This document shows, one piece after another, positions 42 to 54,589 of a stretch of DNA of 64,000 bases; the stretch's first letter is position 1; every line of letters starts with the position of its first letter. The position numbers and the translations under genes are program-made. This stretch comes from Undaria pinnatifida (lineage: Eukaryota > Sar > Phaeophyceae > Laminariales > Alariaceae). The notes below the pieces were generated by a model. The model saw only the letters and a list, made by a program, of their open reading frames with translations. It had not been told where the DNA came from and made no database searches. Location: contig JABAKD010000026.1 of assembly GCA_012845835.1 (NCBI GenBank), forward strand, positions 2,963,199 through 3,027,198, written 5' to 3'.

Positions 42-206
42 CCGGGGAAAAGGCCAAGTGGCCCAGAAGCTGCATGAAGGTGTGGCTCCTCTAAAGCTAT
101 GTTACGCCCCATGATGGGTGTGCTTGTCGTCCCAGCTAGGGTAACCTCCGAACTTGAGTGCACGGGAAAAGCTGAGCCCATGGGAATCGGCCTTGAAGGT
201 GGGTGC
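42..206 (-). CDS. Giant gene exon 19 (last one in the window)
   Basis: 165 nt, phase 2 to 2, acceptor TTCCCTCCAG, donor GTAAGC. It encodes [20 protein letters not shown] and ends GPLGLFPG. Of the three frames between these sites, the one open throughout is the one demanded by exon 18's phase. The donor is intact, so the gene continues past base 1. Confidence 0.6.
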
Positions 207-3200: not shown

Positions 3201-6200
3201 ATTGTCGATAATGTTGATAATGTTGATAATGCTGATAATGCTGATAACGTTGATAACGTTGATAGTGTGGATACTGTTGACAGTGTTGATAATGTTGATA
3301 ATATTGATAACGTTGATAGTTTTGATAATGTTGATAATGTTGATAATGTTGATAATGTTGATAATGTTGATAGTGTTGATACTGTTGATAGTGTTGATAA
3401 TGTTGATAGTGCTGATATTGTTGATAATGTTGATAGTGTTAATAGTGTTGATAGTGTAATGTTGATAATGTTGATATTGTTGATAACGTTGATAATGTTG
3501 ACAGTGTTGATAATTTGGATGGTGTTGATAATGTTGATAATGTTGATAGTGTTGATACTGTTGATAGTGTTGATAATGTTGATAGTGTTGATACTGTTGA
3601 TAGTGTGATAATGTTGATAATGTTGATAGTGTTGATAGTGCTGATAATGTTGACAGTGTTGATAATGTGATAATGTTGATAATGTTGATAATGTTGATAA
3701 TGTTGATAGTGTTGATAATGTTGATAGTGTTGATAATGTCGATAGTGCTGATAATGTTGATAGTGTTGGTACTGTTGATAGTGTTGATAATGTTGATACT
3801 GTTGATAATGTTGATAATGTTGATACTGTTGATAATTTTGATACTGTTGATAATGTTGATAATATTGACAATGTTGACAGTGTTGATAATGTTGATAATG
3901 TTGATAATACTGATAATGCTAATAGTGTTGATAATGTTGACAGTGTTGATAATGTTGATAATGTTGATAGTGTTGATACTGTTGATAGTGTTGATAATGT
4001 TGATAGTGTTGATACTGTTGATAGTGTGATAATGTTGATAGTGTTGATAGTGTTGATAGTGCTGATAATGTTGACAGGGTTGATAATGTGATAATGTTGA
4101 TAATGTTGATAACGTTGATAATGTTGATAGTGTTGATAATGTTGATAGTGTTGATAATGTCGATAGTGCTGATAATGTTGATAGTGTTGGTACTGTTGAT
4201 AGTGTTGATAATGTTGATACTGTTGATAATGTTGATAATGTTGATACTGTTGATAATTTTGATACTGTTGATAATGTTGATAATATTGACAATGTTGACA
4301 GTGTTGATAATGTTGATAATGTTGATAATACGATAATACTGATAATGCTCATAGTGTTGATAATGTTGACAGTGTTGATAATGTCGATAATGTTGATAAC
4401 GTTGATAGTGTTGATAATGTTGATAGTGTTGATAATGTTGATAATGTTGATAATGTTGAGAGTGTTGATAATGTTGATAGTGTTGGTAATGTTGATAGTG
4501 TTGATAACGTTGATAGTGTTGATAATGTTGATAATGTAATGGTTCACCTCCTAAGAGTGGAACAATTGGTTAGCATGATGACTTTACGAGTACAATATTT
4601 GTGTCAGGACTATTCATAGAACTAGGGCATAGAACTGTTGGTCGGGTGGCGCGAACACATTTCTTCGAAGCCATCATTCGCGTGATGTTGATGCTGATGT
4701 TGACTTCCTCATGTTAGGCAGAGCTCAGATTCTTCTGCCGCATCCCTAGCGTAGGATGGCTCCCTGCATGAGATGTACATCATACATCTTACAGACCACG
4801 GCCATATCTGCCCCGCATGACGTATGGATCATGAATGGGGATCTGACCTGTGTAAAAGAAGTGTGAAGATTTTCACAACAACGGAACGGAAGAAGGCAGG
4901 GAAACAAACTCACCGACATATTAACTCTTTGGTAAGGTCGACAATGCGCTGCTGGTTGTCCTGGACTGCCATTGCGTCCAGTGTTTCTTGGGCTATCTTC
5001 ATGACCATTCCGCAATCTCCTCCGTCACTACCCCAAGAGTGACCGATGGATGTTGCACATGACACGGCAGCGCCCCCGTTTTTTGTGGGTGGGTCATAGC
5101 CCTTCGCGCCCAATGGCTCAACCCAACACCATGCTCGATTAGGTTCGGCTGTCCACATATTTGTTGCGCGCGGTGGACAGTTTGGTAAGCTTCTGATTGC
5201 CGCCCTGACATGAGACAGCAGATTAACAATCGCAGCGCGAGAAAAGAGGATCGACAGCGCCATGTCGAGGACGAGGCTTAGGGAAGGAAGGTCGTCTTCC
5301 TCGGCCGATAAGGCTGCTCTCATTAACCCGTGCTGGCCGTTAACTGCTACTTCTGCTGCCGATGCCTCCTGGGCTGCTAGCAACGCCACCGCACGTGAAG
5401 ACGCCGTTAAATCGTTTTCAGCACCCCATGCCGCCTCGGCGGCCGCGCTCAGTGTTGTGCTAGCACCCTGGCCGTTTTGGATGGGGGAACCTGCAGCCGC
5501 TGTTGCTGGAGATTGTCCGGTCCTGCGAGCAAGAAAGCTTCTCCTGACGGCGCTTTGATGCGTACGACACAGAAGTACAACACAGCGGGGGGCGGCGGCG
5601 GGAGCGTGATGGTGGAGAATGAAAGGGTATCACCGGGTGTGCTACCTGTTATGTTCGTGTGGGGGTGGAGTGATTAATTAATTTTCATACGTCGAGAGCG
5701 ACGGCGTGGGGTATGGTGGTGAGTGAAAATGTTATCACCGGGTGTGCTGTTGTGGAAAGGTGTCCTATCTTTTTTTTTCTTGGGGGGGCGGGTGGAGTAA
5801 TTTTAGAAATTTCCATCGTGGAGGGAGACGATAAAAAACGTCAAGAAACCAAACACCGGTACTTAGTCACAGTTTTCCGGTTTACGTCATGCCTTCTATT
5901 ATTTTATACGTTCCGAAGTTTCTGCATACATTTCGTTGACAAAAAAAAAACGGAGGGAGCTTGGTGAAAACGTAATTAATTCCTGATAATTCAAGACATT
6001 CGTTAATTTCCATCTTCGAGGAAGACGATATACGGCTTGCAACTGTTCAAACCGTTAACCACTGCCGATGGTATCATAGAACCGTGAAGCGTTATTCTAC
6101 AGGTAGTGATTTCGGCCAATGATGCTGTTGTTGCTGTCCTCACATTAACTCGCATAATCAAGTCCGTGGTTACAGAACAGGCTCCAGTCACTCTGGAGCT

Positions 6201-9200
6201 GAGGAATACCCCAGCGAAAAAACACAAACAAACCAAAGGTGGTACACGCATAAATCACAGCTGACGCAATTCATGCCTCCGCCAGAAACATGTAAAAGTG
6301 AAATCGGGAGTCAGTCTACGATGTGCCAGATCCATACTGGTGCATACGTCTCATTACTCGCGCCTGGAAAAACCGACTATACCGCTTGCCACCCAAGAAA
6401 AACTGCCACGTATATATTGTACGCAGTACCTATCACTACGCATACGCACGACAGACGCAAATCGATTGGACAAAAGAAACACAAAGAAAAGAGAAGAAGA
6501 TAAAGGAAAAGAAAGAAAAGACAAGGAAGCGAAAGAACGAAAAAGGGAAGGAAAGAAAAGGAAAGACAAGAAAAGCAAGAAAAGACAATATGAGAAGAGG
6601 AAGCGAGGGAAGGAAAAGAGAAAAAATGTCATACTAGCAGACCCTAGGAACTGACGAAAGACGGCATTGGGCTCATAGAGGATATCAAGTGCAAAAAAAA
6701 AAAAGAAAAGACAAGAAAAGCAAGAAAAGACAAGACAAGAAGAGGAAGCGAGGGAAGGAAAAGAGAAAAAAATGTCATACTAGCAGACCCTAGGAACTGA
6801 CTCAGGACGGCATTGGGCTCATAGAGGATATCAAGTGCATCATCAATGGTACCTGGGAGAGAACGCAACATGGCGAAGAAGTCAGGGCGGTCTTACGCTA
6901 TCTTGTGACGGCCATTGGAAGGCCCACAAATTTCAAGACGATGATGGCCAGACCCAGGCTTCAGTCTCTTGGGCATGACGCCCCCCCTCCCCCCCCCCTT
7001 CCCCCCCCCCCCTCCCCCCTCCCCCCCTCCCCCCTCCCCCCCTCCCCCCTCCCCCACTCCCCCCTCCCCCTCTCCCCCCTTCCCCCTCCCCCCTCCCCCC
7101 TCCCCCCCTCTCCCCTCCCCCCCTCCCCCCTCCCCCACTCCCCCCTCCCCCACTCCCCCCTCCCCCTCTCCCCCCTTCCCCCTCCCCTCTCCCCCCTCCC
7201 CCCCTCCCCCCTTTCCCCCTCCCCCCCCTCCCCCTCCCCCCCTCCCCTCTTCCCCCTCCCCCTCTCCCCCCTCCCCCCCTCGCCCCCTCCCCCCTCCCCC
7301 TCTCCCCCCTCCCCCCCTCCCCCCTTCCCCTCTCCCCCCTCCCCCCTTCCCCCTCCCCCCTCCCCCCCTCCCCCCTTTCCCCCTCCCCCCCTCCCCCCTC
7401 CCCCCCTCCCCCCTTCCCCCTCCCCCTCTCCCCCCTCCCCCCCTCCCCCCCTCCCCCCTCCCCCCTCCCCCCCTCCCCCCTCCCCCCTCCCCCCTTCCCC
7501 CCTCCCCCCCTCCCCCCTCCCCTATCCCCCCCTCCCCCCTCCCCCCTCCCCCCCTCCCCCCCTCCCCACTCCCCCCCTCCCCCCCTCCCCCCTCCCCCCC
7601 TCCCCACTCCCCCCCTCCCCACTCCCCCCTTCCCCCCTCCCCCCCTCCCCCCCTCCCCCCTCCCCCCTCCCCCCGGCTGCCTAGAAATGCCGACGGTGGA
7701 TGGTCCTGCCGCAGCCTTTGCACGTCGCTCTGCAGCTTTGCGTGTCTCCGTTTCATGCCAATCCCGCATGAACAACTCGGCTCCCTCCTCTACTCGTCGA
7801 AACCATCTGCCGGCCTTCTGAGCAGCCTTTCGCCATCCTTCGAATTTCATTCCAAAGACCGACACATCTTCCTTCAGATGAGCCAGCCAGTCCTTCTCTT
7901 GCCCCCCTGTGTAGCCCTTACCCCCAACAAGCTCCCCAAACATCACCCTCTGTGGCAGACGCTCCTCCCCCTTACGTGCTACGAATCCCGCAAACAATGA
8001 TAAACAAGTCTGACAGGGCACAAAAAAACGGGCCAAAACTTCAACAAATCCATATCCTCAAAATTGTGACAATGCGATTTTAGCGTATGTTGCCATTTTA
8101 CTGTTGACCGTTTTGGGCGCATGTATGATACAGCGACAAAACGAAGCACAAGCGCCTTCTTATCATGGTGCGATCATTCTTATCATGGTGCGATCATGCT
8201 CTTCATGCAGCACGCGGCAGTGCAAGCTATGCGCGTGTCTTACAGGTACTTGCATTGGAAGTCGACGGTAAAAATCGTCGTACGCTAATCTAGCAACCCG
8301 GGTTTGTTCGTATGAAGGATGCTGCAATCGCCAGTTCTATTAGCCAATGTGTCCCTCTGAAGCGCCAAAAGGGTCAACAGGCAGAAACACCGAACTTCCC
8401 ACGAATAAATCGATTCGCCACGCGCCAATCTCAAAAAAAGCAATACTATTCATAACTTCACCTGTACATATCGTGCCACCTACGGTCTCCCGTCTCGTCG
8501 TCGTCAGTTCGCCCTTCTCCTTCCCCCGCTCCCGTTTCAACTCCGGTGGCTTCCAGCTCATACCCAAACCCACCGACGCCGGCATCATTTCCATCGTCAT
8601 TTCCATCGTCGCTTTCTCTCTCTTCGTCGTTGTATTCGTCACCCGTGCCTGACGAGTGCAACGCAAGGGGGACAATCCGCGCATTTCGCGCCAAAAAACG
8701 CGCGCTTATCTATTAACGGAAACGAGTCACGCAAGAAGGAAAACAAGCGCTGGCACTCTGAATCAAGCATCGATGCTCATTCAGTACCATCTTCAACTAT
8801 GGCCAACAGTCCCGTTAAAGCGAAATTACATTCGGAACCAAAAGCATGCCGGGAAAATCGACGAACGGTGGGAATGCCGAATCGTATGCGCGAGAAAACA
8901 AAAGCACGTACCGAGGGGAAGAAACGACACCCGTACCACGGCGTGTTCAGAAGCTTGCTGGGGGTAACCTACTACATTAGTAGTGATCCCCCTAAAGTGA
9001 TGTTTGGATAGTACAGGCTGCCCGGTATAGTGCCTGTGAAATCGCTTGGCACAGATGGGAACAGCCAATAGTGCCGGTATGGGGAGTAGTGCCGGTTGCC
9101 TACATAGTGCTTGTATTTCCGACTATAGATACCACCGCTATGGCGGGACCACTACTGTACGAGTTGAGCTGTAGAGTACGAAGGTATAGTTGCTACCATC

Positions 9201-30200: not shown

Positions 30201-33200
30201 AAGATCGTTGATTTCCCTAGCAAGGCAGTCCAATTTAAAAAAGAAGAAGAAGTAATTTTGCTTGCTTTGAAGTCCAAGCCGTTGGGTTTCTTGAGTCACG
30301 TGTTGACTCAAGGAGCCCACCAGCTTGGGCGTCTAACTAACAGTTTTCTTGGCCTTGACTTACGTAAATGCACAAGAAGGCGTGTGGCCGCGTCTTCTTC
30401 CAGAGGATATCTGGCGTAGCTCTGCAGACCATAAACGTGCTGGATGCGCGCGTTTACCGGTGTGTCACGTGAATGGGGTCAGAGAGTGGACTGTGTCTTA
30501 GGGCCGTTTCTAACGAAACCACGTTTAGATTTTTGGATTTATTCGTTCCCAAATTGGTAAGATCAACTTTGTGGAAACTCGTACTTTGGATATTACCCTC
30601 GTCCTTCGTTGGAAAATTTTATAAAGCTTTCGAGTGATTTATTCGCTATTTACTATTTGCAGCTTTTTATTTTCTATTTCGAGACTCGAGAAGAGATATA
30701 CCTATATTTTGATTGGCAGGCATTTTTCCATTTGCAACGTGTCGGTACTTATGGCCCTTACCTCCATGCCGACTCCAGCCACTTGACGGGGAGTGAAGAC
30801 TTCTATCGCAGCACCTCCAATTTCTTCGGTAGGATCGCTACCTGGTTCTTCACCCATGTGCTCGTCTGACAACGAGCGACTGCTGCCGTGGCTGTTCAGC
30901 CCCCACTTGAACAGCCTGCCGTCTGCTGTCGTTGCTGCGCTGCAGGTTTGACCTCCCGCGACAGAGCACACACGACCCCCAGAAGGCGACGAGAAGAATG
31001 CCACTCGCGTGGGACTATGGCGCGGCTCTTCCGTACGGCGGGCGGAGGCACGCGTATAGAAAGGGAAATACACGATCAAGGAAGGGCGGTGATGCATTAG
31101 ACTACGACAGGAAAAAATGGAGCACTGTACTGTCCGGTAGGAATTGTGGATTGTAGTTGGACCTGAGATTCACGATGAAGCTGGACACGCAATAGCGTTC
31201 GTCGATTTCTATCAAGAAGGCGATCCTGGCCAGAGACGATCGTGGACGGTATTACCTCACGACAGGGGCATGTGGGGTACCAGCCGGTGATGATTGTCTG
31301 AACCTGGTATTCACGGTGTTGTCGGATACGCATGTATTTCGCCAATTTGTTCAAATGGTATTCACGGTGTTGTCGGATACGCATGTATTTCGTCAATTTG
31401 TTCAAAAAACGCAATCTTGGCGAGAGACGACCGAGGACGGTTTTTCACTCTGCCAGTAGAATGTGGGGTATCAACCGGTGGGAAATTCTGAACTCGGGGT
31501 TTACGGTGTTGTAGGATACGCATCGATTTCGTCAATGTTGAATCGAAAAGACGATCCTGGCCGACGATCGAGGACGGTCATACATGATGACAGGAGGACT
31601 AGGGACACTATCCGGTGGGAATTCTGAAGCTTGGATCTTCGACATCGTCGGGTGTGGGTGGATCTCGTGTCAACTTGAATAGCAACGTAATCCTGGCCAG
31701 AGACGATCGAGGACGAAAATACATTCCGCTAGGAGAATGTGGGGTACCATCAGGGGGGAGATTTTCTGAACCTGGGGTATACCAAGGTGTCGGATACGCA
31801 TGGATTTCGTTCAAGTCTAAATAACAACGCGATCCTGGCCAGAGATGATCGAGGACGGTAACATGTTATGCTAGGAGAAATGTGAGATACCATTCGGTGG
31901 GAATTTTCGGAAGCCGGGATGCACGGTATTGTCGGATATTCTCGTCAATGTTGAAAACACCGACGTGTTTCCTGGTCCTTTTCACTACTATTCTAAAGGA
32001 AACCGTTGTCGACACCACAGCAAAACTCAAAAGACAGAGATATTTGGAGGGGTGGTAGGTTGGGGTGGGGGGATAGAGATGGGGCGGTTAACCTTAGCCC
32101 TAAGTGGGAACAAATCTCAACTCTCTAGGATGTCGCTGACGGCCATTTCAATTGCTGCTGACGGAAGGTCTGTCGACGCGTGCGTGGAAAACGGTAGCCC
32201 GTTTTTGACCAAAACAATTTCGACTCGCGCGGGGCTCCTCAGAAAAGGGACCACCGAATATCGACGCCATCCCGTTCGTATTTTACTGCATTATTCGATT
32301 CTCCATCGGGTTTATTGCACGCTCGTTTTTTACACAAGAAATGGTTTTGGTCGAGGTGTAGAGCTTCTGGAATGAACAAAAAAAAAGAAGCTTTAGCAAA
32401 AATACCTGTGCCCCTGCAGCAGCGATGGGCCTGTCTTGCCAATATTGGCCATTAATGCCTCGCGTTGGCGTTCCATGCGCGATCCCTTCTCGTGGAAAAA
32501 TCCCTTACATCTCCATGCCCCAGCTGCTCACCCCGTTTCAATCTTCATACCTCACCTACACCTCCATGCCCCAGCTGCCCGCCGCGTCATAATCTCCATA
32601 CCTCACCTACATCTCCATGCCCCAGCTGCCCGCCACGTCCCGATCCCCACGAAAACAGGGCGCCGTCATCAGTGACGGCCATGCAGTGATGCCATCCGGA
32701 AGCAATCGTTTTCACCCGCGCCGAGCCCAGGGCATCTCCGCCAACCCTGTTCGGCAAAGTTCCTTCTGTCTCGCCGACCCTCCCGCCCAGTGTCGCAGAT
32801 GACACGGAGTCCCCAAGAGCAGGTGTTGCCCACGTGCGACATGTATCTCGGTTGCCGCCACCGATAGTGAAAACCGCGCCACAGCGGGACAGGATGAGGG
32901 TGTGGCTCCAGCCGCCGGCCATAGCCGCCACCGGGAACTCCTCTAGGCCTTGTATAGTCCGAGGGGAGAGCTGTCACAACGAATTAATACACGTTTTCGA
33001 CGACAGGCCCAAGGAGCGACATTAATTATGCACTGCACATTGTCAGAAGACAAATCAAATCATGAACACGAACGGCGCACGTATTTTTTAGTAAAAGACT
33101 TTCGAGCTCCAACCATTTTGGGACGCGCACACACCAAGGCCCAACGACAACAAATTGATTTCGTTGGGTTACGTCGAGTTGGGGTTGGGGTTGGGTTGGG

Positions 33201-36200
33201 TTGGGGTTGGACCTTGGCCACGCAATGAGGGGCAAACCCTTTTTCCGTCTGGGTTTGATGTCCAATGCGGTTCATATTGTCACGTGCTATGGAGTACTGT
33301 GCGTATCTACTGTTGCTGCAGCTATACGAAGACAGTTCCCTAGAACGGTCCTTGTAGGCTTGATGTAGTATTTGGATGTTCTCGAAATTGTGTAGCGTGT
33401 GTTGTGTGCGTTGTGTGTGGTGTGTGGTATGTGTGTTATGTGTGTTATGTGTGTTATGTGTGCTATGTGTATTGTGTGTTATGTGTGTTGTGTGTGTTGT
33501 GTGTTATGTGGGGTTAGGATTACGGTTAGGGTTGGGGTTAGGACTACGGTTAGGGTTAAGGAGGTTAGGGGTAGAGTTAGGCCCCAAAGCGGCCTTGAAG
33601 ATGTGGCGGGAGATTGATGCGGTGTAGAGGGAGATTACTGTGGTATCCCGGGCACATCTTAGCGCTTGGAGTCTTGACCCTTCCCAAGCCTTTTGAGCTG
33701 AGAAAGGATCAACCAACGAGAAGGAGCTTAACAACGCGAAGCGGTGCCTTCCTGTACCAATACCTTCTGTGCCCCTTACCATACAGAAGTCAATCGCAAC
33801 CGTATCGATGATTTCCAGAGTAAAATAGAAGCCGCAGTCGTATCGAGGAACGTTCAGACAAAATCGAACTGGAATGGCGTTCCTCCGACCTGCATGTTGC
33901 TCAACAGCCTCCATCAGATCACTCATCAGATCACCGATCTACACGCACACGTCAAAATAAGGTGTGTGTCAGGCATCGTATGTACCAGGTATATGCTTTC
34001 TTGCTTCGTCAACAGCTCAGCGTTTTTGCTCGTATATTCAACGGCATTTGTCGCCCCTATTAATAATAAAAAGTACCGAGAACTAAATCTTGCAGAGTTC
34101 TGCGCCTTTGCGTCTGACGACACGTTTTGTGGGGCAGAAGAGTGGTGTTTATTCATAGCGACTGCCTGGCATGTCAGTTAGTTGGCGTTTATGTTTATCA
34201 GTTATCAGCAAGAGCCCCAACTCGCTTGCGTTTGCCGTGGCTTTTGCTGGTGTGCACGCGACGAGCTCCACCCGAGACTGGTCCTGGGGTGCTCGTTTGC
34301 TTTTTGTACAATGCACTCTGACTCGCATCACCTTCTCCCGCTACTTAATCCTCGCACGTTCACAGAAAATCTATCCTTTACTACACGCCACCCAAGTAAT
34401 AAAAAACCAGGGTTTTTCACGGGTCATGCATGACCCGACCGACCCGCGGGTTCGCGGGTTGGGTGAAGAAGGTTTCAAAATATCGCGGGTCGAGTCCGGT
34501 CGGATCAAGAGGTGCTCACAATGTCACTGGTCGGGCCAGGAGATTTTTCAAAACTCACGTGTCGGATCGGGTCAGGCCGACCCGAAACCGATCCGACCCG
34601 CAAGAAATGACTCGTGAAAAGCCCTGTTAATAGCTGGCCGTGACGTAAAAAAAAACTAGAAAAACTCAACTATTTGAGCACGCACCGTGTCCACGGCGAC
34701 GGTGTCCTTACGGCCGCACTGTCCAATGCTATTATTTCCCCAGGCATACGGCGCTCCCGACGAGCAAATCGCCATGGAGTGGAAAACACCACAAAATACC
34801 GCCTCGATGTCGACTCCCTGGAGGGCTTCGACGGGGCAGGCATATGGCCGATCTTCCGTGTGCCCTAGGCCGAGTTGGCCGTAGCGTCCACTTCCCCAGG
34901 AGAATACCTGCCGGAGATGTGGACGTGCTCGGGTTTGTGAAAGATAGAGAACTTGTTACATTATGGCGAGCGAATGCGAGGAGCCTCAGACAATTTGTGT
35001 TTATCCATACGGTAGCATGTGCCCCTCAACGTGGCGCGTTTCTGTGAAGGTATGTAGCAGTAGACCATGGTCCTAGCGAACAACTATTGCCATGCAGGGG
35101 TGCCTCTGGCTCTGCACTGGTCACTCACACGAGGGTTGCTTTTGATGTTGTATTTTTTGCTTTAGTTTCTTGCCGCCCGCCTGATGCCTTTCTGAGAGAA
35201 GGCACGGGTTCATCTCTTTCAGGCAGGCGATAACGCCTGCCAGGTAATGAGAGAACACTTGCTACAGATCGTAACACCGCAACAGGGGAGAAGGGATACC
35301 AACACCATAGCATGTTTTTACCTGTCCGGTCTCGAGGAGAGCGAGCGTGTGTTTGTGCCCGCAAGCAACGTCTGACACGCTGGGTTTACACGCCAAAGCC
35401 TGCCACACCGTGGGCGTGGTGGGGTGTCCGGCGTGTTCGCTGTTTGCGGGGCAAACAGAAGAAGAAAAAGAAGAAGAACTGTGACGCCTGGACCTCGTAC
35501 AACCAGCATCATCGTCCACGGTGAACCCCCTACTGCCTTGTGACTCCGGTGTCCATGCTTGAGGGTTGCGCAATCGATCCAGCATCGAGAGAGGTGCCGA
35601 TGGCTTTGTGGTCGTAGCTGTGCATCTCCACGTCAGCAGGTCTCCGTCAACCGTGAGAGCTGCGTTGTATGAGGCAGTAGAGTCTACCTGAGAGTTACGG
35701 TTCGGATTCGGGTTCAAGTTAGTGCTGAAAAGGGAGATTGGGGTTAGGGTCAGGGTTAAGCCCTTTAAGACTTTCAGAGGGCAAAACTGACCACTAAAAC
35801 TAACGATTACGGCATAACTGGCCACTGCCAGAGGACGGTAATAAAAATGGTGTCCGAACGACAACCATGCAAAGAAAAACACTACTCGTACGAGACGGGC
35901 GCAGCATGAATCCTGATCGTACTCCTGCATGTTCGCGCTACTGGTAAACGCTTGGAATATCGCAATGGTTGGGGGGTGGGGGGTCGTCGTTGTACTATAA
36001 CCAAGTCAAAATAGGATTAACGTCAGGTTCAGGGCTAGGGGTAGCATTACAGATAAGCGGTAGCAGAATCTGTGTCCATGAGACCATGTCGGAGGGCCGT
36101 TGTTGATACTGCTCTAACATGCACTCATTACCATGCTCTATTTAGTGCGTGATCAGAGGACAGACACAAGTACCTCTGGAGTGCAACAAGGGTCGTTCCA

Positions 36201-39200
36201 AACGAACGAAAACGAAAAGTCACGAATCCTACAACAAATGCCACGATTCCTGACAATTTGAAATTCTGAAAAGTAACAAATCACTCTTTCGTTTCGTTTG
36301 TCAGACACGAATCCTGACACTTTTTTTGAAGGAAAATGTCAAAACGATTTGACGTCCGGATTCCTGACAAAATGTAACGGTTCGCGAAAACGCCACACTT
36401 ACTTTGTGGTTACCATTCCTGACTTGTTTTTTCGCTCGTTAAGAATGGCCCTAAGTGGTGTTTTCGCACATTAACTAGTCGTCAGAATCTAGTCCGTCGT
36501 CACAGGACAGATTTCAACAACTCTGGAGTCAAGGAACAGAAATACCCCAGGAAAAAAAAATGAAACAAGCAAAAAAATGTCGGAGGTGGCCTTATGCTCT
36601 ACGAGCGTCTTGGCGAGCGACAAAGAAGTTGCAAATACTGCATGCCGCTCTTGGTACGCAGTGACACTCGCAGCCAAAACCATCAATTTAATGGAAGATT
36701 CGACGCTGTCGTCAAGTCAATCTACATACTACGGCCAATGAGAAAATAATTTTCAATTACGCGCGACGCTGACATGGAGCCTCTGTTATCGCGAGGACTA
36801 CAATGACAACCGCAACCACTGTAGTACTCATACTTCGACGGAAGTATCGTATGTTGCTGTTGTAACATGCGACGTAGCTTAATTCGTATATAGTTCGGGA
36901 TTAATGAGACCTCTCTGCACAATCTCCAAGTAAGACCAGGAGGCTTTCCCGAAAAGGAGACGCCCTGCTGTCGTCCCCTCTCTTCTGGTTTAAGAATACA
37001 GGCAGAAGTCAATACCACCAACGGCATGTCCACGACGCATGCTATAGTGCGGGTGGTCGTGCATTTTCCGAAGCATCTCATTTGACCAGCTGTAAACTCG
37101 ACGAAAATTGGCGAGCATGAAAAGCTAAATTGCGGGAACGCTGAAACCGTTGGGCGATACAAACGAAGGCAAGTTCCGGGCGGGGGGGGGGAGAGAGAGA
37201 AGGGAAGACGCCTGTGACCAGAAGGGTCGCTCACGGGAAAAACGTCTTACGAGTTGAGCTGTAAATTAACAAGTGATGGTTGAAAAATACAATAAAATAA
37301 ACTAAAAACACAAGAAAAAATCTCACCCAAACCTCTGGCTAAAAAATAAAAAGCGCAACCTGACGAACAACCGATTCCTTCCACGGCCTAGTGTCATGGT
37401 ATTCCCGTGGGAGCCTAACAAGGCGTAAGAACGGCTGGATATAAAAGGGTTTCACATGCCAGTGAAGGCATGTATGTGCGTATAGAAAAAAGGGGATGAT
37501 GCTTTTGCCTCGCGGAATTGAACGCTATTCAGTTCGTCCGTGGCGTGTGTGGAACTAAGACAAGAGCTTATCTAGTACTAATAAGTGAGTGACCAACGTG
37601 GAATCTGCCTAGTAGAGAAACCTGCAAAGGGTGGCCTGTGTCTGTAACAGCCCCTTAATCTTATCATACATGGCGTCGTCGGCAGGACAGTTTACGATGC
37701 GGGGGGTACCCCCATTTCCACCACCGGCTTTGAGCCATCATATCATATCATACTATCATACTCGCACGAGTGACTCCGTGTATCTCACGGGCAAAAACAC
37801 TCAACTTTTTTCAGCGCAACGTGGCGTACCACTCCTATCCAGATTCATATCGCGAGTTTTAACCAAACGAAAGCTTAAAACCACAGAAAAAGAACAGCCC
37901 AAAAGTGACCTCCCCAACCATCGTAGCCTGAGTCATAACAAACAATAATTTTATCGATGCAGAACACACAACAATGGTACGTTCCGACGATATTAGATTG
38001 AGTGGTTCCTCCGATGGGGAGGCATAAACGTGTTGGGCGGAAAGTTGTAGCCTTAATTATCGTAGCTCGCGTCCGACAGCGTTCTGCCCGCCGCTTACCT
38101 TTATCACTTTAACCCCTCCCAAAGCAGGTGCGGCAAACGGTGCCCGTGGTTCGCGGTTGTTGCGGGTGTGGCCCTCGGCTGGCGGGTGCCTCTCCTGGGC
38201 CAGGGCGCGGCAATCGAAAGCGAGCATAGCCAAACGTTGCCCTCCGTTTTTAGACAAAGCGCTGCTGCTACACACTTACTTATGTACCATATGCAAGTTA
38301 GGTTTGTCAGAGTTTAGTGTTTAAGGTGTTAGAAGGTGTTAGGTCCGCCGGACTGGCGGTGAAAGGCGAGCCGATTTTGCACCCCAAGACGCGTGCTACG
38401 ACGAAGTTGTCGGAGGTACATCACTTTTTGGCGAAGTTATTATTTTCTAGAATGACGGCGCTTTTTAGAGCCCCCCCCCCAATGCCTCCCTACACTGACT
38501 TGAAGAAAATTTGTAAAAAAAAAAAAGGGTTTCCAGCTGGAAAGGCGTTAATATCCCAAAATCGTCGGAATTAAGGTCAATATTGTTTCGCAATGTGTGT
38601 GCGTGTTTTTTTTTTTTACACCTAGTAGGCCAAGGGATGGTTTGTTTCGCCATCACAATGGTTGCACTTACTTTCCGTTTACTCGATTAATAAGTCATGT
38701 TTTGGGTGGGGTACAGACCTTCCTCACGGTAGTAGTGCGCGATCTCAGAAAGAAAAAAAAAATGCCCACCTTTTACACTACAGCAGTAGCGCGTGTCCCG
38801 AAGCAACCCTTTCAGGGACACACCCGTGTTTTTGGAGGCAAGCTGATCGGAATTATTGCAGGGTTGTTTGCTTTTTTTGCAGCGTGTTTTTTTTTTTGCA
38901 GTGATTAACACAGATAGCGATTTTGCGACGGGTTTTCTGTTGATGTGTGCGATCGCAAGCGCAGAGAGGAGTACAGAATACGGGACACCAAAATAAGAGA
39001 CATAAATACCGACACAGACAGGCTGAGTTCTTTTACTGGGAAGAGAGTGCGTCCCACACTGCAGTATCTTCGGTGTATCGGCTCCGCATGTCTCATACCT
39101 CTGGTGTTCCTGTAGACTAAATGGCACCCCTGTCTTTCTTTTTACCCTGTTTCTTGTTTAGTCGCCTGTACTGTATGTGAAAGCACGGTGATGGCCGCGA

Positions 39201-41009
39201 GTCGCTTTCCCCGGCATGGGAGGGCGCTGCTCTCATGTGGTGTATGTGTTCTTCACATTAAATCATTGTTTGGTTTCGACCCGTCGAGACTTGGCACATC
39301 CAGTAGCCGTAGGTTACGTCGCCTATACGGCCCCGGCACGCACACTGTTTATTAACGTACTGACTTCGAACAACTTCGAAGGCATACGCTGCGATTACGG
39401 CCTTGATTTCGATGCTCGTACAGCAAGCAGTACGGGGACTGTCACGTACGTTTACGAATTGGATTTGGGCTGTTTAGATATCAAGCAGATGTTGTTGTTG
39501 CAAGCTTAGCACGACCATCAATAAAATGTGTTTACCTCGTCAAGCGATAGCAGGATTCCCGCTTGGCAGCACTCTGAAGATAGCGACAACCCGGGATGTC
39601 TGACTCCAGCACCATCGGTAGGCGCAACAGATCGCGTCGTTTCTTCTAGCTCCTGAGGATCCGCGTGATGTTGACAACCAGTTAGTGTGCGATACATAAT
39701 GTATGACGCAAAGATCGAGGTACCTCTTACAACACGCAGCTTGCAATACTGCATTACCTGGTGCTGTGGTTTCGACGAAATTCTCGGTAAGATGTATTTT
39801 TCATGAAAAATTAATATGATACAGCAGCACTACTACCTTACTTAGCACGTATACTTCATACGTAACACACATGAATTCAGCCGCTTGGTCGGGTGGCTCT
39901 ATGATACTACTGAACAGTTGTACCTTGAGCCGGTGCCCCACGCCGTGGATTAGAAGCGGTCTATCCGCCGGGCTCGAGCACAGGAGGAGCTTCACCACGC
40001 GAAGACAGAGGGACAGAGATCCTCGTTTGACGGCAAGCCCCACGAGCGCTGCCAGCACATCTCCTTGCTGCTCATCCGATAGCTCGTGCTCGTCTCCTAG
40101 CAGCAGCTCTTCTGCTGCCGAGGTGATCGCCTCGACCACCCCATCAGGAGGATCTCTAGCCGCAGTTGCAACTCCACCTAGATCGCTGTGGGGCGTTCCC
40201 TCCGCGGGGGGCTGATTTTCTCGAGAGAGTCGGGGGTGTTCCGGCGATAAAAATAGCAACGGCGTGTTCGATATCATGGCTGGGACCTGCCTGATGAGCT
40301 TCAGGATTCCTGCAGTGTTTTTGTTCCGCCGAAGAGACCCAAGCAGGCGAAAAAACAGCAAGATGCCGATCCGAGCGCCGAGGCCCTCTTCGTCCTCCCG
40401 TTGTCGCTCGCCCCCGCTAACAGCCGCTGGCGACAGCAGCAGCTGCGCATTCGAGCATGCCGGCCGACCGTCAAACGCGCCCACTACATCCGAAGGAAGG
40501 ATCCCACCACACAGCGATCGATCTTCTTGCAGGTACTTGAATTTCGCCAGCAGTACCGTGGACAAATCCTGCAGTCGTTCAGGGAACGTTCGGACAAGTT
40601 TCAATCGCTCAAGATTTGAAAAGCAGGTCGGATCGTTGTAGCACGGAGACGACCCGCAAAAGGGGTAGCGCCCGGCTCCCACCACCATCCCGGTGCCTTG
40701 GGCGTAGTCGATGTCCCAGCACACCCCCCGTGAGAGAGTCGGGTGCGACAGGGCCAGCTTCCCACAGTGCATGCATGCATTGCCCTTGCTTTCATCGTCG
40801 TAGGATTCGATGTGGCGAAACAACGCCCGAGGAAATTCGCAAGAAGTCGGCTCCGCTGTCACTGCTATACTGATATTAGCGTGTTCGAGAACATCCGAGC
40901 AGGACGAGAAAGCGTCGCTCTCGATGGTCGACGTCTGCAGGCGTTGTCCGAGCACGCTGCGGTAGAGGGGACGGCAGCAGATAGCGGCGGGGCTTCCACC
41001 TGTCTCCAT
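42..41009 (-). CDS. Giant HERC1-like gene (RCC1, LamG-like, SPRY, UBA), 3' end off the window
   Basis: Joined exons, right to left: 41009-39837, 39652-39536, 38194-38099, 35687-35322, 34907-34686, 32970-32607, 31027-30762, 29487-29299, 28591-27419, 27106-25718, 21545-21235, 19831-19517, 15862-15604, 15321-11174, 10580-10030, 9571-9443, 8648-8480, 5522-4914 and 206-42. Every junction has GT-AG (one GC-AG) ends and matching phase. They total 12,011 nt, or 4,003 codons plus 2 nt. Domains by residue: RCC1-type repeats about 440-868, LamG/ConA-like about 2430-2760, SPRY about 3345-3508, UBA about 3619-3665. Known of the family: large HERC proteins are HECT ubiquitin ligases with RCC1 propellers, and HERC1 also carries SPRY. 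Inferred: a HERC1-like ligase or regulator whose HECT domain lies past base 1. It could instead be an RCC1/SPRY protein without HECT. Introns of 0.2-4.7 kb carry most of the window's repeats. Confidence 0.68.
549..4539. repeat. 4-kb minisatellite of a 9-bp unit (GTTGATAAT / GTTGATAGT)
   Basis: About 440 units of GTTGAT followed by AAT, AGT or variants. The array fills most of the 4.7-kb intron between giant-gene exons 18 and 19. Because 9 is a multiple of 3, long spurious frames stay open on both strands. Occasional 8-bp units (GTGATAATG) shift the phase. Higher-order structure is visible: a roughly 250-bp block at about 3668-3925 recurs almost unchanged at about 4090-4330, and a rare variant string (GATATTGATGATAATTTTGA) occurs near 1055 and near 2633. 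Confidence 0.97.
4914..5522 (-). CDS. Giant gene exon 18
   Basis: 609 nt, phase 2 to 2, acceptor CTTGCTCGCAG, donor GTGAGT. Ala-rich helices, then [20 protein letters not shown] and a Trp-containing segment [16 protein letters not shown]. No family recognised. It is separated from exon 17 by 3 kb holding the LINE relic and the C5-6T array, and from exon 19 by 4.7 kb holding the 9-bp satellite. Confidence 0.7.
5523..6473. other. Start of intron 17-18; part of a dispersed repeat
   Basis: No coding signal. AT-rich, with poly-A/T runs. Bases 6160-6245 resemble 36495-36580: both carry CTCTGGAG followed by AATACCCCAG and an A-run. This marks a dispersed repeat family of unknown type. Confidence 0.4.
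6474..6860. repeat. Polypurine tract with a tandem 145-bp duplication
   Basis: The + strand is almost pure A/G from 6474 to 6625. A segment beginning GTCATACTAGCAGACCCTAG occurs at 6627 and again at 6773, each followed by a segment ending ATATCAAGTGCA and separated by another purine run. A tandem duplication is therefore visible. It lies inside an intron of the giant gene. Confidence 0.85.
6976..7675. repeat. 700-bp array of C5-6T units
   Basis: Nearly pure pyrimidine on the + strand: runs of 5-7 C separated by single T, with rare A and TT. The transcript of the giant gene would carry the G-rich complement, (GGGGGA)n, a strong candidate for G-quadruplex formation. Long frames through it (Pro/Ser/Leu or Gly/Arg/Glu) are artefacts. 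One end lies directly against the LINE fragment. Confidence 0.97.
7684..8010 (-). mobile_element. LINE 3' fragment (end of a reverse-transcriptase ORF)
   Basis: The minus-strand frame reads ...[37 protein letters not shown] and [19 protein letters not shown]. This 'RLP-x-x-x-x-GEL-x-x-G...D/E-x-x-x-x-G-x-x-x-x-x-W-x-x-x-A' pattern is the tail that follows the RT domain in many non-LTR retrotransposons. The RT itself is absent, so the copy is 5'-truncated. The ORF runs directly into the (GGGGGA)n array, which sits where a LINE's 3' tail would be. The exact 5' limit is uncertain. Confidence 0.66.
8480..8648 (-). CDS. Giant gene exon 17: acidic linker
   Basis: 169 nt, phase 1 to 2, acceptor TGCACTCGTCAG. 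Rich in Asp, Glu and Gly ([17 protein letters not shown]). The donor GTGGCA after 8480 gives the phase exon 18 needs; an overlapping GTAGGT four bases earlier would give phase 1. No domain; acidic linkers are common in giant HERC proteins. Confidence 0.6.
8981..9154. mobile_element. MITE, family A (TAGTGGTCCC termini), without SINE insertion
   Basis: The left end TAGTGATCCCCCTAAAGTG and the right end (reverse complement TAGTGGTCCCGCCATAG) are imperfect terminal inverted repeats. The interior (TATAGTGCCTGTGAAATCGC, GGAGTAGTGCCGGTTGCC, ATTTCCGACTAT) matches the copy at 58343-58836. No coding capacity. It lies in the intron between exons 16 and 17. Confidence 0.72.
9443..9571 (-). CDS. Giant gene exon 16: third UBA helix
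   Basis: 129 nt, phase 1 to 1, acceptor CTCCCACAACAG, donor GTGTGC. It starts [20 protein letters not shown]. Joined to exon 15, the helix-MGF-helix-helix series gives a complete UBA of about 45 residues. A charged tail follows. Confidence 0.76.
10030..10580 (-). CDS. Giant gene exon 15: second half of SPRY, start of UBA
   Basis: 551 nt, phase 2 to 1, acceptor TATTTACAG. It continues SPRY as [13 protein letters not shown] and [16 protein letters not shown], the classic SPRY ending. A polar linker follows, then UBA helices 1-2: [20 protein letters not shown], with the MGF loop that contacts ubiquitin in UBA domains. The donor is GCAAGA, a GC-AG intron; this choice alone puts exon 16 in frame to complete the UBA. 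Confidence 0.86.
11174..15321 (-). CDS. Giant gene exon 14: LamG/ConA-like module and first half of SPRY
   Basis: 4,148 nt, phase 0 to 2, about residues 2081-3462, the largest exon. Helices come first. A jelly-roll region (about 2430-2760) follows, with an aromatic ASSFWVWV strand and [12 protein letters not shown], typical of laminin-G-3/ConA-like folds. A '[11 protein letters not shown]...CCGTVVGW' stretch comes next, then the SPRY start: [20 protein letters not shown] and [11 protein letters not shown]. The donor GTGAGG splits SPRY after EEMRF. SPRY domains bind partner peptides; the partner here is unknown. Confidence 0.86.
15604..15862 (-). CDS. Giant gene exon 13
   Basis: 259 nt, phase 2 to 0, acceptor CCCCTTGCGCAG, donor GTAACT. 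Helical: [19 protein letters not shown], a short Pro run, then a helix ending RSNALRAK. It joins exon 12 directly in phase across a 3.65-kb intron that holds the pentamer satellite, so no exon is needed between them. Confidence 0.74.
16998..17176. mobile_element. Remnant related to the CAGGG-end TIR element
   Basis: It contains CGGGTTTTTTCAAAG, TTTCAAAATATCACGAATCG and GGGTCGAGTCGGG. All are close to sequences inside the TIR element at 34408-34626 (TTTCAAAATATCGCGGGTCG). The pentamer array starts immediately to the right, after a short TACCC run at 17145-17166. Confidence 0.65.
17177..17987. repeat. CCCGA pentamer satellite, about 160 units
   Basis: Nearly perfect CCCGA repeats over 0.8 kb. 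One 4-bp unit near 17690 and a short variant patch near 17856-17873 are the main interruptions, which suggests recent expansion. It lies in the 3.65-kb intron between giant-gene exons 12 and 13. The frames through it (DPTRP or VGSGR repeats) are artefacts. Confidence 0.97.
18668..18790. repeat. Dispersed repeat family C, partial copy
   Basis: It contains GTCTCTGGCTCTG..GGTCAGTCACTCGAGG and, further on, CCTGATGCGTTAGAGGAGGCG, matching the first half of the copies at 24862-25072 and 35101-35297. The type of element is not clear. Confidence 0.55.
19517..19831 (-). CDS. Giant gene exon 12
   Basis: 315 nt, phase 2 to 2, acceptor GGATTTCTTCAG, donor GTGAGC. It encodes [20 protein letters not shown], an acidic stretch and a helical tail ending PQIGLIMR. 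A decayed partial copy of this exon and its acceptor lies 0.7 kb upstream at 20505-20665. Confidence 0.66.
20505..20665 (-). pseudogene. Decayed duplicate of giant-gene exon 12 (5' part and acceptor)
   Basis: Aligns with 19722-19865 over about 145 bp (for example TTCGAGCGAGTC then CCAGC..AGCACTTC.CGC). It includes the equivalent of the splice acceptor (here TTCTCCAG). An indel after the acceptor moves the copy out of the exon's frame and it soon meets a stop, so it should not be a working exon. It sits in the intron just upstream of the real exon, so it is probably a local tandem duplication. Confidence 0.62.
21235..21545 (-). CDS. Giant gene exon 11
   Basis: 311 nt, phase 0 to 2, acceptor CGTAACACAG, donor GTAAGC. 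It starts [20 protein letters not shown], a helical segment resembling the 'FL-x-D-L-x-x-G-x-G...L-x-x-W-M' pattern I associate with giant HERC-type proteins (from memory). An Arg-rich patch and another helix follow. It is separated from exon 10 by a 4.2-kb intron. Confidence 0.66.
21546..25717. other. 4.2-kb intron 10-11: repeats only
   Basis: I see no exon that fits phase 0 to 0 here. Contents: a duplicated segment (22135-22265 and 22540-22655, sharing CCTGGGACATGGG / CCTGGGCCATGGG, an A-run and GGGGTAAGGTAC / GTGTGAGGTAC), a CT/GT-rich stretch at 23450-23540, repeat family C at 24862-25072, and poly-T runs. No gene supported. Confidence 0.5.
24862..25072. repeat. Dispersed repeat family C
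   Basis: Shares with 35101-35297 the order: GTCTCTGGCT or CTCTGGCTCTG, GCACTGGTCACTCACAC.AGG, TGATGCCTTCTGA, then GGCGATAACGCCTGCCAG and a final GGGGAGA.GGGAT. The motif GGCGATAACGCC is self-complementary. It looks like a non-coding transposable element; I could not find its terminal repeats. Confidence 0.7.
25718..27106 (-). CDS. Giant gene exon 10: helical region with (Ser-Pro)n tract
   Basis: 463 codons, phase 0 to 0, acceptor GTTCTGGCAG, donor GTAAGC. Helical segments flank a basic charged linker containing a GDREKK repeat. A (TSP)/(SP)n tract is encoded by a pure 6-bp repeat at about 26030-26080, so its length may vary between individuals. The exon ends QDFPQALE. Confidence 0.75.
27419..28591 (-). 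CDS. Giant gene exon 9: helical/armadillo-like region
   Basis: 391 codons, phase 0 to 0, acceptor GCTGTCACAG, donor GTGAGC. It begins [18 protein letters not shown] and has long amphipathic helices, a low-complexity middle with repeated 'DGQPK' peptides, and a final helix [15 protein letters not shown]. Helical repeats of this kind fill the space between domains in giant HERC proteins. No catalytic motif is visible. Confidence 0.72.
29299..29487 (-). CDS. Giant gene exon 8 (63 residues, polar linker)
   Basis: Phase 0 to 0, acceptor ATCAACAG, donor GTATGG. The residues are polar and Pro/Gly/Ser-rich with no recognised domain. The exon links the propeller to the helical region. Supported by consensus sites and phase agreement on both sides. 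Confidence 0.6.
29672..29850. repeat. Dispersed repeat family D
   Basis: Matches 41930-42205: ATCGCCCTTGG, then TTGTCGACC.CGGCAGCATCCA, and downstream a TGATCGAACTCACAGCTG segment. Related pieces (CGTCAG(C/T)(T/C)GTGAGTTCGACGAATTT and GCAAGCTGCGT) also occur near 20305 and 41190. Non-coding; type unknown. Confidence 0.6.
30762..31027 (-). CDS. Giant gene exon 7: last RCC1 blade
   Basis: About 266 nt. It encodes [16 protein letters not shown] and then [15 protein letters not shown], an RCC1 core and turn. The donor GTAAGG is at phase 0. The acceptor is ambiguous: AG before 31027 pairs with phase 1, AG before 31025 with phase 0. Both follow a pyrimidine-rich stretch and keep the frame. Confidence 0.78.
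31200..31960. repeat. Tandem array of diverged units of about 130-150 bp
   Basis: Five diverged units each carry CGATCCTGGCCAGAGACGAT and CGAGGACGGT, then ATGTGGGGTACCA, a GGTGGGAATTTTCTGAA segment and TGTCGGATACGCATG. One 51-bp sub-block is duplicated at about 31302-31403. On the + strand the first part of several units reads ILARDDRGR, but other units shift frame or stop. It lies in the intron between exons 6 and 7. Confidence 0.85.
32497..32650. repeat. Three 51-bp tandem units covering the exon-6 splice donor
   Basis: The string CTCCATGCCCCAGCTGC starts at 32511, 32562 and 32613, exactly 51 bp apart. On the minus strand each unit encodes the RCC1 turn GQLGHG and is followed by a splice donor (GTAGGT/GTGAGG in units 1 and 2, GTAAGG in unit 3). 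Unit 1 is the end of exon 6; the other two lie in the intron. Reading on from unit 1 meets a stop. Confidence 0.9.
32607..32970 (-). CDS. Giant gene exon 6: RCC1 blades
   Basis: 364 nt, phase 0 to 1, acceptor TTGTGACAG. It contains [17 protein letters not shown] and [18 protein letters not shown], two RCC1 cores, and ends at the blade turn [10 protein letters not shown]. The donor is GTGAGG after 32607 (phase 1), or GTAGGT four bases earlier in the transcript (phase 0); the next exon offers an acceptor for each. The donor region is repeated three times in tandem (see the 51-bp repeat). Confidence 0.84.
33166..33590. repeat. Telomere-like and TG-rich simple repeats
   Basis: TTGGGG/TTGGG runs at 33178-33212, TGTGTTATG-type repeats at 33400-33505, then GGTTAGGGTTGGGGTTAGGA and related TTAGGG-like strings at 33515-33575. 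A shorter TTAGGG-like patch occurs at 35740-35760. All are degenerate and inside introns. No telomere function is implied. Confidence 0.7.
34408..34626. mobile_element. 219-bp TIR element (CAGGG...CCCTG ends)
   Basis: The left end CAGGGTTTTTCACGGGTCAT and the reverse complement of the right end CAGGGCTTTTCACGAGTCAT agree at 18 of 20 positions. The interior is rich in GACCCG/CGGGTC and holds no ORF of note, so this is a MITE. CAGGG ends occur in hAT and other superfamilies; no clear target duplication is visible, so the superfamily is open. It is kin to the flank of the CCCGA satellite. Confidence 0.78.
34686..34907 (-). CDS. Giant gene exon 5: RCC1 repeat (no in-frame Met needed)
   Basis: 74 residues, phase 0 to 0, acceptor CTCCGGCAG, donor GTGCGT. 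The peptide starts [16 protein letters not shown], the signature of an RCC1 blade, continues the blade opened in exon 4, and ends at [16 protein letters not shown]-type residues. An ORF caller that demands a start codon would miss this exon. Confidence 0.87.
35101..35297. repeat. Dispersed repeat family C
   Basis: Copy aligned with 24862-25072; it ends with CAGGCGATAACGCCTGCCAG and GGGGAGAAGGGAT. It stops just before the 3' end of giant-gene exon 4. Confidence 0.68.
35322..35687 (-). CDS. Giant gene exon 4: RCC1 blades
   Basis: 122 residues, phase 0 to 0, acceptor CTCTCAG, donor GTAAAA. It opens with an RCC1 strand ending LTW and closes with [17 protein letters not shown], a textbook RCC1 repeat core (V-A-C-G-x-x-H-T-x-A-L). 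Between them is a Ser/Pro-rich loop with a run of serines. RCC1 propellers bind proteins or small GTPases; which applies here is unknown. Confidence 0.82.
36188..36453. mobile_element. 266-bp TIR element (AGGGYCRTTCY ends)
   Basis: The left end reads AAGGGTCGTTCCAAACGAAC and the right end, reverse-complemented, TAGGGCCATTCTTAACGAGC. The similarity continues through CGAAAA and AGTCA.GAAT for about 40 bp. Inside, a motif close to ATTCCTGACA recurs five times. A similar end (TTAGGGCCGTTTCTAACGAA) occurs alone near 30498. Non-coding, so a MITE; target duplication not clear. Confidence 0.66.
37392..37685. mobile_element. LTR-retrotransposon fossil: one LTR plus primer-binding site
   Basis: An LTR-like segment starts TGTCATGG and ends ATACA. 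It contains a TATAAAAGG promoter-like box near 37440 and is followed directly by TGGCGTCGTCGGCAG, the form expected for a tRNA primer-binding site. No second LTR or coding part is seen, so this is an incomplete fossil. The left limit is uncertain. Its primer site resembles that of the miniature LTR element at 44452-44829. Confidence 0.45.
38099..38194 (-). CDS. Giant gene exon 3: start of the RCC1 propeller
   Basis: A 32-residue exon, phase 0 to 0. The acceptor CCCTGGCCCAG has a long pyrimidine run and the donor is GTAAGC. It ends in GGVKVIK. Joined to exon 4 ([16 protein letters not shown]) this gives the RCC1 strand pattern 'hydrophobic-x-x-V-x...AL-x-x-DG-x-L-x-W'. That match across the splice is the main reason for placing it here. 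Confidence 0.58.
39536..39652 (-). CDS. Giant gene exon 2 (39 residues)
   Basis: A short acidic/polar exon, phase 0 to phase 0, starting with peptide ELEETTRS and ending LLSLDE before a GTAAAC donor. The acceptor follows TCCTCAG. It has no domain of its own and joins the helical N-terminus to the first RCC1 strand. Supported by the open frame, both splice sites and phase. Confidence 0.5.
39837..41009 (-). CDS. Giant gene exon 1: Cys-rich then helical N-terminus
   Basis: This exon encodes residues 1-391 from the ATG at 41009-41007. The frame stays open upstream to about 41141, and an AG acceptor at 41115-41105 would also fit, so an earlier exon is possible. A cysteine cluster (Cys79, 82, 97, 118, 123, 129, with a CMHC motif) could bind zinc, but I do not recognise the fold. 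The rest is Leu-rich and helical. The donor is uncertain: GTAGTA after 39837 and GTATAC after 39855 both keep phase 0; the better-looking GTAAGG between them would shift exon 2 into a stop. Confidence 0.6.
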
Positions 41010-41384: not shown

Positions 41385-41717
41385 TTTTGTTTGTTTGTTT
41401 GTTTGTTTGTTTGTTTGTTTGTTTGTTTGTTTGTTTGTTTGTTTGTTTGTTTGTTTGTTTGTTTGTTTGTTTGTTTGTTTGTTTGTTTGTTTGTTTGTTT
41501 GTTTGTTTGCTTGTTTGCTTGTTTGCTTGTTTGTTTGTTTGTTTGTTTGTTTGTTTGTTTGTTTGTTTGTTTGTTTGTTTGTTTGTTTGTTTGTTTGTTT
41601 GTTTGTTTGTTTGTTTGTTTGTTTGTTTGTTCGTTTGTTTGTTTGTTTGTTTGTTTGTTCGTTTGTTTGTTTGTTTGTTTGTTTGTTTGTTTGTTTGTTT
41701 GTTTGTTTGTTTGTTTT
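41385..41717. repeat. (GTTT)n microsatellite, about 83 units
   Basis: A 333-bp tetranucleotide run with a few C substitutions. It ends exactly at the T-run/poly-A side of a SINE copy, so it probably grew from that element's A-rich tail. Confidence 0.97.
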
Positions 41718-53306: not shown

Positions 53307-54534
53307 TCACACATACATGTCAGGTTCTTCAGCGTCGTTTTTTCCCTTGCGAGGACGGGTCTTGATTATCTTGAAAGGCCTATGCACCGGTCCGATGGGG
53401 CCCCGCCTGACTACCTCGTCGCCAGGACCAGCGTTCCAAGGGCGATGTAAGGGGACACGCTTTGCTTTCGTCCGGCGATCGACGTACCCCTCCACGTAGA
53501 AGCCAAGCCCTTTGTCTCCTAATCTGAACACGTACCCATGTTTAGCACAGTCGAACGTCTCAGAAGGGAAAAACACTTCAACTGTGTTTGGGTCTGCCTT
53601 GGTGCTACCGTGTACTCCATCTGCCTCCAGGGCCGGTGGGTGGTATCGCTCTTGTGAGGGCTCCAACGCGACAGGGGCTTCTTCAGTGCCATTGCCCTCT
53701 GTGCTGGGTGCATTATCGTCCTCGGCCGGTGGGATTTCTGGCTCTGGAACCCCCCCGTCCGCGATGCTGTCCTCCCCCATCCCTACTTCATTTGACGTTT
53801 CCAGCTGCGCGCCAACCTCAAAAACGTCGATCTCTGCGATTGGCACGTCGATCTCTGCGATAGACACGTCCATCTCTGTGCCTGAAGGTGTTGCTGGTGC
53901 TGATATCCTCCCAGCTGCTGTTGTAGACGGCGATTCAATTTCGCCGTCGATACATGCACCCGTTGGGAGGATTGCGGCCGAACCTGAGGCCTCCCCCGCG
54001 ACATGAGAAGATCTTGGTCGTGGCGGTTGTTCGTCTAGAGAGACAGAATGCTCGAGGTCGCCCTCTCCGGCGTCAGTACCTACACCTTCTCTAGCATCAA
54101 CTGCCTGCCCTTCACTTGCATTTGTAGTACAATGTTTCGCGCTGTCATTGATAGGCGCCACCAGGTTCGGTTCAACGGTGTTGGGGCGTCCTGCATGTTC
54201 ATCTTCAGTACGAACAACTTCTATTGATTGGCTAGTACTAATAGAGCCATGCACAACCACCATGTGATTTGAAGCCCCTAATGGTAGCGGCACCGAGCCT
54301 TCCCGTCTTTGTGTGTCTCCTTTGCTTTCCTCGCAACACCTCGCCCCCCCATAGCGGGTATCAACTGCTGTAGCCCTATTACTATTAATACTAACGGTTG
54401 GAACCTCCTTTGGAGAACTTTGACACTGCAATAATAATGCCGAACCATTGTTTGCTGCGTCGCCCACCCACGGCGGTACGGCTGCCTCTTTTGTTGTTGC
54501 ACTCTCTGCCTCTCCTGAGAGCAGCGACGCGTCT

Positions 54535-54589
<55 letters not shown>

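Follow-up and report, generated by a model that had tools for sequence, protein, structure and literature searches.

A giant minus-strand gene of Undaria pinnatifida with a probable, unusual HECT-type layout

Large HERC proteins are described as combining more than one RCC1-like domain with a HECT domain (PMC6692442) and as carrying two RCC1-like domains together with one or more SPRY domains (PMC5666861). In the former source, the first propeller of human HERC1 begins at residue 371, and the HERC1/HERC2 set is traced to animals and choanoflagellates (PMC6692442). A giant non-animal SPRY-HECT protein that lacks the full HERC propeller set is Dictyostelium HectPH1, in which a PH domain replaces the RCC1-like domain and whose HECT domain is homologous to that of HERC1 (PMC5666861, in part). 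No paper on HERC1 in brown algae, or on HECT or HERC proteins in stramenopiles, was found in the literature, and none on the gene described here was recognised from titles and the opening lines of abstracts.

A giant gene with many introns lies on the minus strand of the window, by which we mean the whole stretch of 64,000 nucleotides analysed (C33:2963199-3027198); most of the gene is within the window, and it extends past the left edge. The encoded protein resembles HERC1 and HERC2 in its giant size, in an RCC1-like domain that begins roughly 400 residues into the protein, in having SPRY and in a HECT part at the end. It differs from them in that one RCC1-like domain was detected where HERCs have more than one, in having two SPRY domains of which neither is nearest to that of HERC1, and in that a HECT C-lobe was not found. 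With HectPH1 it shares the giant SPRY-HECT form. The nearest solved relative of its HECT N-lobe is HECTD3, for which the solved chain has 864 residues and the likeness covers the HECT part; likeness to UVR8 and to the ryanodine receptor (RyR) is confined to single shared modules, the propeller and the first SPRY domain, respectively.

Gene model within the window

Exons were chained with a script that combined codon usage with splice-site scores, joined exons in phase and charged a penalty for each exon. Low penalties gave over 100 tiny exons and were rejected. The best chain begins at 41009 even when the start is left free (penalties 14, 20 and 22); with the start fixed there, 31, 25, 24 and 21 exons were obtained at penalties of 16, 18, 20 and 22, and these chains share a core. 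An upstream in-frame ATG, at 41141, is followed by sequence with a non-coding score (−4.9). The window model was derived from the 24-exon chain at penalty 20 by removing two exons that lie in low-complexity sequence (6897-7729 and 7794-7978) and two doubtful ones (24954-24963 and 24627-24809), and by altering four ends according to reading phase or domain fit (23602 to 23567, 9997 to 10030, 8484 to 8462 and 38 to 42). Note that the GC donor at 10030 was picked by eye, the scripts having chosen 9997 or 10126, and that the left end at 42 is the chosen donor of exon 20. The resulting model has 20 exons, 12,353 nt and 4,117 codons with no stop; 17 of the 20 exons are identical in the free-start chain with low-complexity sequence blocked (penalty 20). 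Its exons are as follows.

Exon 1, 39924..41009, minus strand: ATG at 41009, 362 codons; without Pfam match
Exon 2, 39536..39652, minus strand: no in-frame ATG; weak alone; no domain
Exon 3, 38099..38194, minus strand: no ATG; weak alone; RCC1-like match starts here
Exon 4, 35322..35687, minus strand: RCC1 blades
Exon 5, 34686..34907, minus strand: RCC1 blades; three decoys as good without domain evidence
Exon 6, 32607..32970, minus strand: RCC1 blades; end and donor duplicated by a 51-bp tandem repeat
Exon 7, 30762..31027, minus strand: RCC1 blades
Exon 8, 29299..29487, minus strand: from chaining and codon score
Exon 9, 27419..28591, minus strand: from chaining and codon score
Exon 10, 25718..27106, minus strand: from chaining; coding signal drops at the donor
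Exon 11, 23157..23567, minus strand: alternative acceptors at 23602 and 23654
Exon 12, 21235..21545, minus strand: from chaining and codon score
Exon 13, 19517..19831, minus strand: from chaining; partial diverged copy at 20537-20629
Exon 14, 15604..15862, minus strand: a 282-bp intron, within a single open frame, divides it from exon 15
Exon 15, 11174..15321, minus strand: weak laminin-G-like match; SPRY 1 begins here
Exon 16, 10030..10580, minus strand: SPRY 1 ends and the UBA-like match begins here; GC donor
Exon 17, 9443..9571, minus strand: end of UBA-like match; two decoys as good
Exon 18, 8462..8648, minus strand: acidic stretch
Exon 19, 4914..5522, minus strand: from chaining and codon score
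Exon 20, 42..206, minus strand: uncertain; weak alone; nine more exons follow outside the window

Across the intron between exons 14 and 15 the codon score dips from 15600 to 15360. The 19 introns comprise 18 of GT-AG and one of GC-AG type and have a mean length of 1,506 bp, which, together with a GC content of 49.7%, is closer to Saccharina japonica (48.72% GC, mean intron 1,203 bp; PMC6507550, in part) than to Ectocarpus (54% GC, intron 740 bp; PMC6418280, in part).

Several of these introns hold repeats. Most of the exon 19-20 intron is taken up by a 4-kb minisatellite at 570-4537, made up of some 443 copies of GATAATGTT; in the exon 13-14 intron CCGAC recurs about 171 times (97% match) at 17134-17987, and diverged tandem units of about 140 bp lie at 31223-31912 in the exon 6-7 intron. 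A 198-bp repeat (76% identity) occurs in two introns, at 24880-25070 and 35109-35297. The intron before exon 13 contains, at 20537-20629, a diverged copy of part of that exon (79% over 94 bp), perhaps a decayed duplicate exon. The end of exon 6 and its donor are duplicated by a 51-bp tandem repeat of 2.6 copies (32506-32639), so that spare donors lie beyond the one used. TTTG is repeated about 83 times at 41386-41716, roughly 380 bp before the ATG at 41009.

Chance agreement was assessed on control sequences. An earlier strand control was set aside as flawed: its chain on the minus strand ended near 6933 in a low-complexity frame, and the reversed sequence scored as much as 447.5 in it. With low-complexity sequence blocked and a penalty of 20, the minus strand gave a chain score of 901.2 (22 exons, 12,618 nt), the opposite strand 73.3 (21 exons, 3,534 nt) and the reversed sequence 110.7 (19 exons, 4,161 nt); the 20-exon model scores 898.2 at this penalty. 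Since the opposite strand also yields 21 stop-free exons in phase, phase agreement obtained by selection is weak evidence. Exons were also chosen with phase ignored, and at penalty 22 phases matched at 14 of 19 junctions (P 0.0004 against one third), or at 13 of 18 without the junction pair that lies inside one open frame (P 0.0009). Matches numbered 14 of 22 at penalty 18 (P 0.003) and 12 of 14 at penalty 26; on the opposite strand they were 0/7 and 11/23. Fifteen of the 20 exons outscore every opposite-strand decoy exon. The remaining five, with the number of decoys as good, are 39536-39652 (six), 38099-38194 (four), 34686-34907 (three), 9443-9571 (two) and 42-206 (five).

The original prediction of a single gene of at least 41 kb is borne out by this reconstruction, in which exon chaining rebuilds a minus-strand gene from the ATG at 41009, apparently with about 15 kb more outside the window. 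The in-phase, stop-free chain that it proposed also holds, but its 19 exons and 4,003 codons become 20 and 4,117. Matching phases had been claimed at all 18 junctions; they match at 19 of 19 in the rebuilt model, by construction, and alone prove little. Three exons singled out as short or lacking a start codon (34686-34907, 38099-38194 and 39536-39652) were all recovered identically by free-start chaining, and all three belong to the five that fail the decoy test; the latter two have no in-frame ATG, but the first has one.

Extension past the left edge

The assembly (511,146,479 bases in 68 contigs) was searched, and one of its 41 HECT matches, C33:2948431-2948613 (minus strand), falls 14.6 kb beyond the left edge of the window. 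The 40 kb left of the window are sequence without N, and nine added exons fit in phase there (contig C33:2948436-2961650, minus strand). Coordinates left of the window are given as negative numbers, 0 being contig position 2963198, and codon scores were trained on the window exons only.

Exon 21, −1548..−3150, minus strand: codon score 132.9; above every opposite-strand decoy
Exon 22, −3498..−4303, minus strand: codon score 67.9; above every opposite-strand decoy
Exon 23, −6029..−6155, minus strand: 19 decoys as good
Exon 24, −7196..−7356, minus strand: nine decoys as good
Exon 25, −8397..−9635, minus strand: codon score 91.3; above every opposite-strand decoy
Exon 26, −9925..−10149, minus strand: one decoy as good
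Exon 27, −11453..−11603, minus strand: one decoy as good
Exon 28, −12529..−13276, minus strand: codon score 53.6; above every opposite-strand decoy; HECT part
Exon 29, −14586..−14762, minus strand: three decoys as good; HECT part

Four of the nine added exons thus beat all decoys, and in the same test exon 20 had three decoys as good. The full model has 29 exons, 17,590 nt and 5,863 codons without a stop and spans 55,772 bp. Exon ends around the second SPRY domain were set by hand to fit the domain, one exon of which was missed by chaining with phase ignored. With phase ignored, the new junctions match in 4 of 8 cases at penalty 22, 5 of 9 at 18 and 4 of 7 at 26, which is not clearly above chance, so the link to the extension rests on coding strength and domains. 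The last donor, that of exon 29, has a poor score of 0.4, and a TGA closes the frame within two codons, right after the HECT N-lobe.

The weakest link of the one-gene model is the window edge, where exon 20 has a codon score of 4.2 and cannot be tested by phase because its length is divisible by three. Two adjacent genes would be an unlikely alternative reading of the locus: an RCC1-SPRY-UBA gene ending at a TAA at 40-38 and a SPRY-HECT gene starting in exon 21 or, with still less likelihood, a pair with its break between exons 8 and 14. Unspliced, exon 20 does end in that TAA, and a Met occurs early in exon 21, but a good donor (9.2) overlaps the TAA, and with phase ignored exon 21 is joined in phase by exon 19 or 20 at all three penalties. 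A break further upstream would suit the lack of any recognised domain (Pfam) in exons 9 to 13 and the in-frame ATG at 15771 in exon 14, which costs only 2.4 bits; with phase ignored, junctions of exons 8 to 14 match in 5 of 9 cases at penalty 18, but in 5 of 6 at penalties 22 and 26 (P 0.018). The coding signal is moreover negative past the donors of exons 8 to 11, and exons 9 to 14 are preceded by no open upstream ATG. The locus is probably one minus-strand gene that runs from 41009 past the left edge to about 14.8 kb beyond it and encodes a giant modular HECT-type protein.

Domains and relation to HERC proteins

Pfam families were sought in the whole spliced window protein, with aa 1155-1176 and 3201-3286 scanned within their exons instead. 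An RCC1-like propeller matches WD40_RLD at 196.1 bits (cut-off 150), from aa 416 in exon 3, and RCC1 at 146.7 bits in four stretches, and RCC1-type matches span the junctions of exons 4-5, 5-6 and 6-7. The first RCC1 blade, scanned apart from the rest, gave no family. The blade joined at exon 6 scores 49.5 bits, versus 41.3 for the alternative junction. SPRY 1 scores 45.7 and 21.6 bits in the separate exons 15 and 16 and 83.9 when they are joined (profile 1-120 of 121). A putative UBA follows from UBA_7 matches of 18.6-23.5 bits, below the cut-off of 27, the score being 23.5 with the GC donor at 10030 versus 21.8 with the donor at 9997. SPRY 2 rises from 43.8 bits in one exon to 65.3 when exons are joined in phase, and the HECT N-lobe (48.4 bits, profile 96-187 of 306) runs across exons 28 and 29. 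A PDB search with the region before the propeller returned nothing credible, and two structure predictions made without relatives gave mean pLDDT values of 33.6 and 45.2.

A HECT C-lobe with its active cysteine was not detected in the 70 kb left of the window on both strands (best E 3.2) with a profile built from HECT C-lobes of the same genome. Left-out C-lobes of four other loci of that genome (L005, L006, L008 and L009) were recovered at E 1.7e-35 to 3.4e-11. The null result, obtained despite these controls, leaves several readings: there may be no catalytic lobe, its exon may lie at a distance or have changed strongly, or the assembly may contain an error there. For a second RCC1-like domain, a profile of the protein's own blades was run against all ORFs of at least 15 aa on both strands of window positions 1-45000 and the 70 kb to the left, a search that could overlook a copy that has diverged greatly or is broken into small pieces; only the four known exons matched, the next hit having an E of 0.44.

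Among PDB chains, the propeller is nearest to UVR8 (192.9 bits), followed by HERC1 (4o2w, 156.7) and HERC2 (130.4). The nearest solved domain to SPRY 1 is that of RyR (80.9 bits), the HERC1 SPRY (4qt6) not being among the best 60 of 66 chains; SPRY 2 is nearest to TRIM9 (50.5 bits), with HERC1 SPRY 22nd (30.3 bits), and the HECT part to HECTD3 (38.8 bits). The HERC1 identity implied by the original prediction is thus not upheld: a single RCC1-like domain was detected in the sequence searched and its propeller is nearer UVR8, and the SPRY and HECT parts are nearest other proteins. Because a HECT part was found and a second propeller was not detected in that sequence, the identity favoured here is a separate HECT-type layout rather than a large-HERC-like one; judged by its domains, the gene would not be filed as a HERC, and its layout looks like that of a giant HECT ligase.

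A true large HERC of HERC1 or HERC2 type, with a second RCC1-like domain and C-lobe missed through divergence, assembly error or distance, would suit the size, the SPRY (a HERC1 mark), the terminal HECT part and a propeller match from residue 416 (371 in human HERC1; PMC6692442, in part), but is very improbable given the null own-blade search, the nearest solved domains listed above and the finding of no WD40 family in the parts of the extension scanned.

Two of the other HECT loci in the U. pinnatifida genome, L005 and L006, have a C-lobe of the form RSRLP..TCFF.(I/L).LP.YSS, which we take to resemble HERC1, and from this motif they appear to be better candidates for a true large HERC in this species. 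A scan of a collection of genome contigs for the SPRY 1 region turned up no relative. The same region found four loci among viral contigs (IMG/VR), two of which (L001:4491-5900 and L004:175-1671) encode proteins that, as read by eye, combine a LamG-like stretch with a SPRY-like one containing FNFGNSPF. These viral LamG-SPRY proteins were rejected by eye as relatives, on the ORFs of two of the four loci.

Proposed role and significance

The protein of about 5,860 residues would consist of an N-terminal region, the RCC1-like propeller, a laminin-G-like stretch, SPRY 1, a UBA-like segment, a long middle, SPRY 2 and the HECT N-lobe. Of these, the propeller, the two SPRY domains and the HECT N-lobe are shown by the analysis, as are most exons. 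Its most likely role would be that of a large HECT-type ubiquitin ligase or of a scaffold derived from one, in which the propeller and SPRY domains may bind partners, the UBA may bind ubiquitin and the HECT N-lobe may bind E2. Because the C-lobe with its active cysteine was not found, ubiquitin transfer is a step that we infer only. The RCC1-SPRY-UBA-SPRY-HECT protein may be seen as a variant form among large HECT ligases, and it may lack ligase activity. That the catalytic C-lobe has been lost is a tentative reading, which we hold to be rather doubtful; the protein would then bind ubiquitin, substrates and perhaps E2 without being a ligase, and would serve as a scaffold or regulator derived from a giant E3.

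Genes with strong coding signal flank the locus at 53317-54967 (minus strand), 47609-48907 (minus strand) and 61101-61979 (plus strand). Ten flanking ORFs gave no Pfam match, and Rfam and tRNA scans of the whole window were empty.

The gene first predicted here is real, larger than claimed and of an unusual giant HECT-type layout. At 41 to 56 kb it is five to ten times the brown-algal mean gene length, reported as 5.6-7.9 kb (PMC6418280 and PMC6507550, each in part). Automatic annotation may split such genes, and giant ubiquitin-system proteins can therefore be under-counted. Should the C-lobe really be lost, the protein would be a naturally occurring giant E3 that lacks the catalytic half; should it be a full ligase, it would represent a giant RCC1-SPRY-HECT arrangement distinct from the HERC1/HERC2 set.
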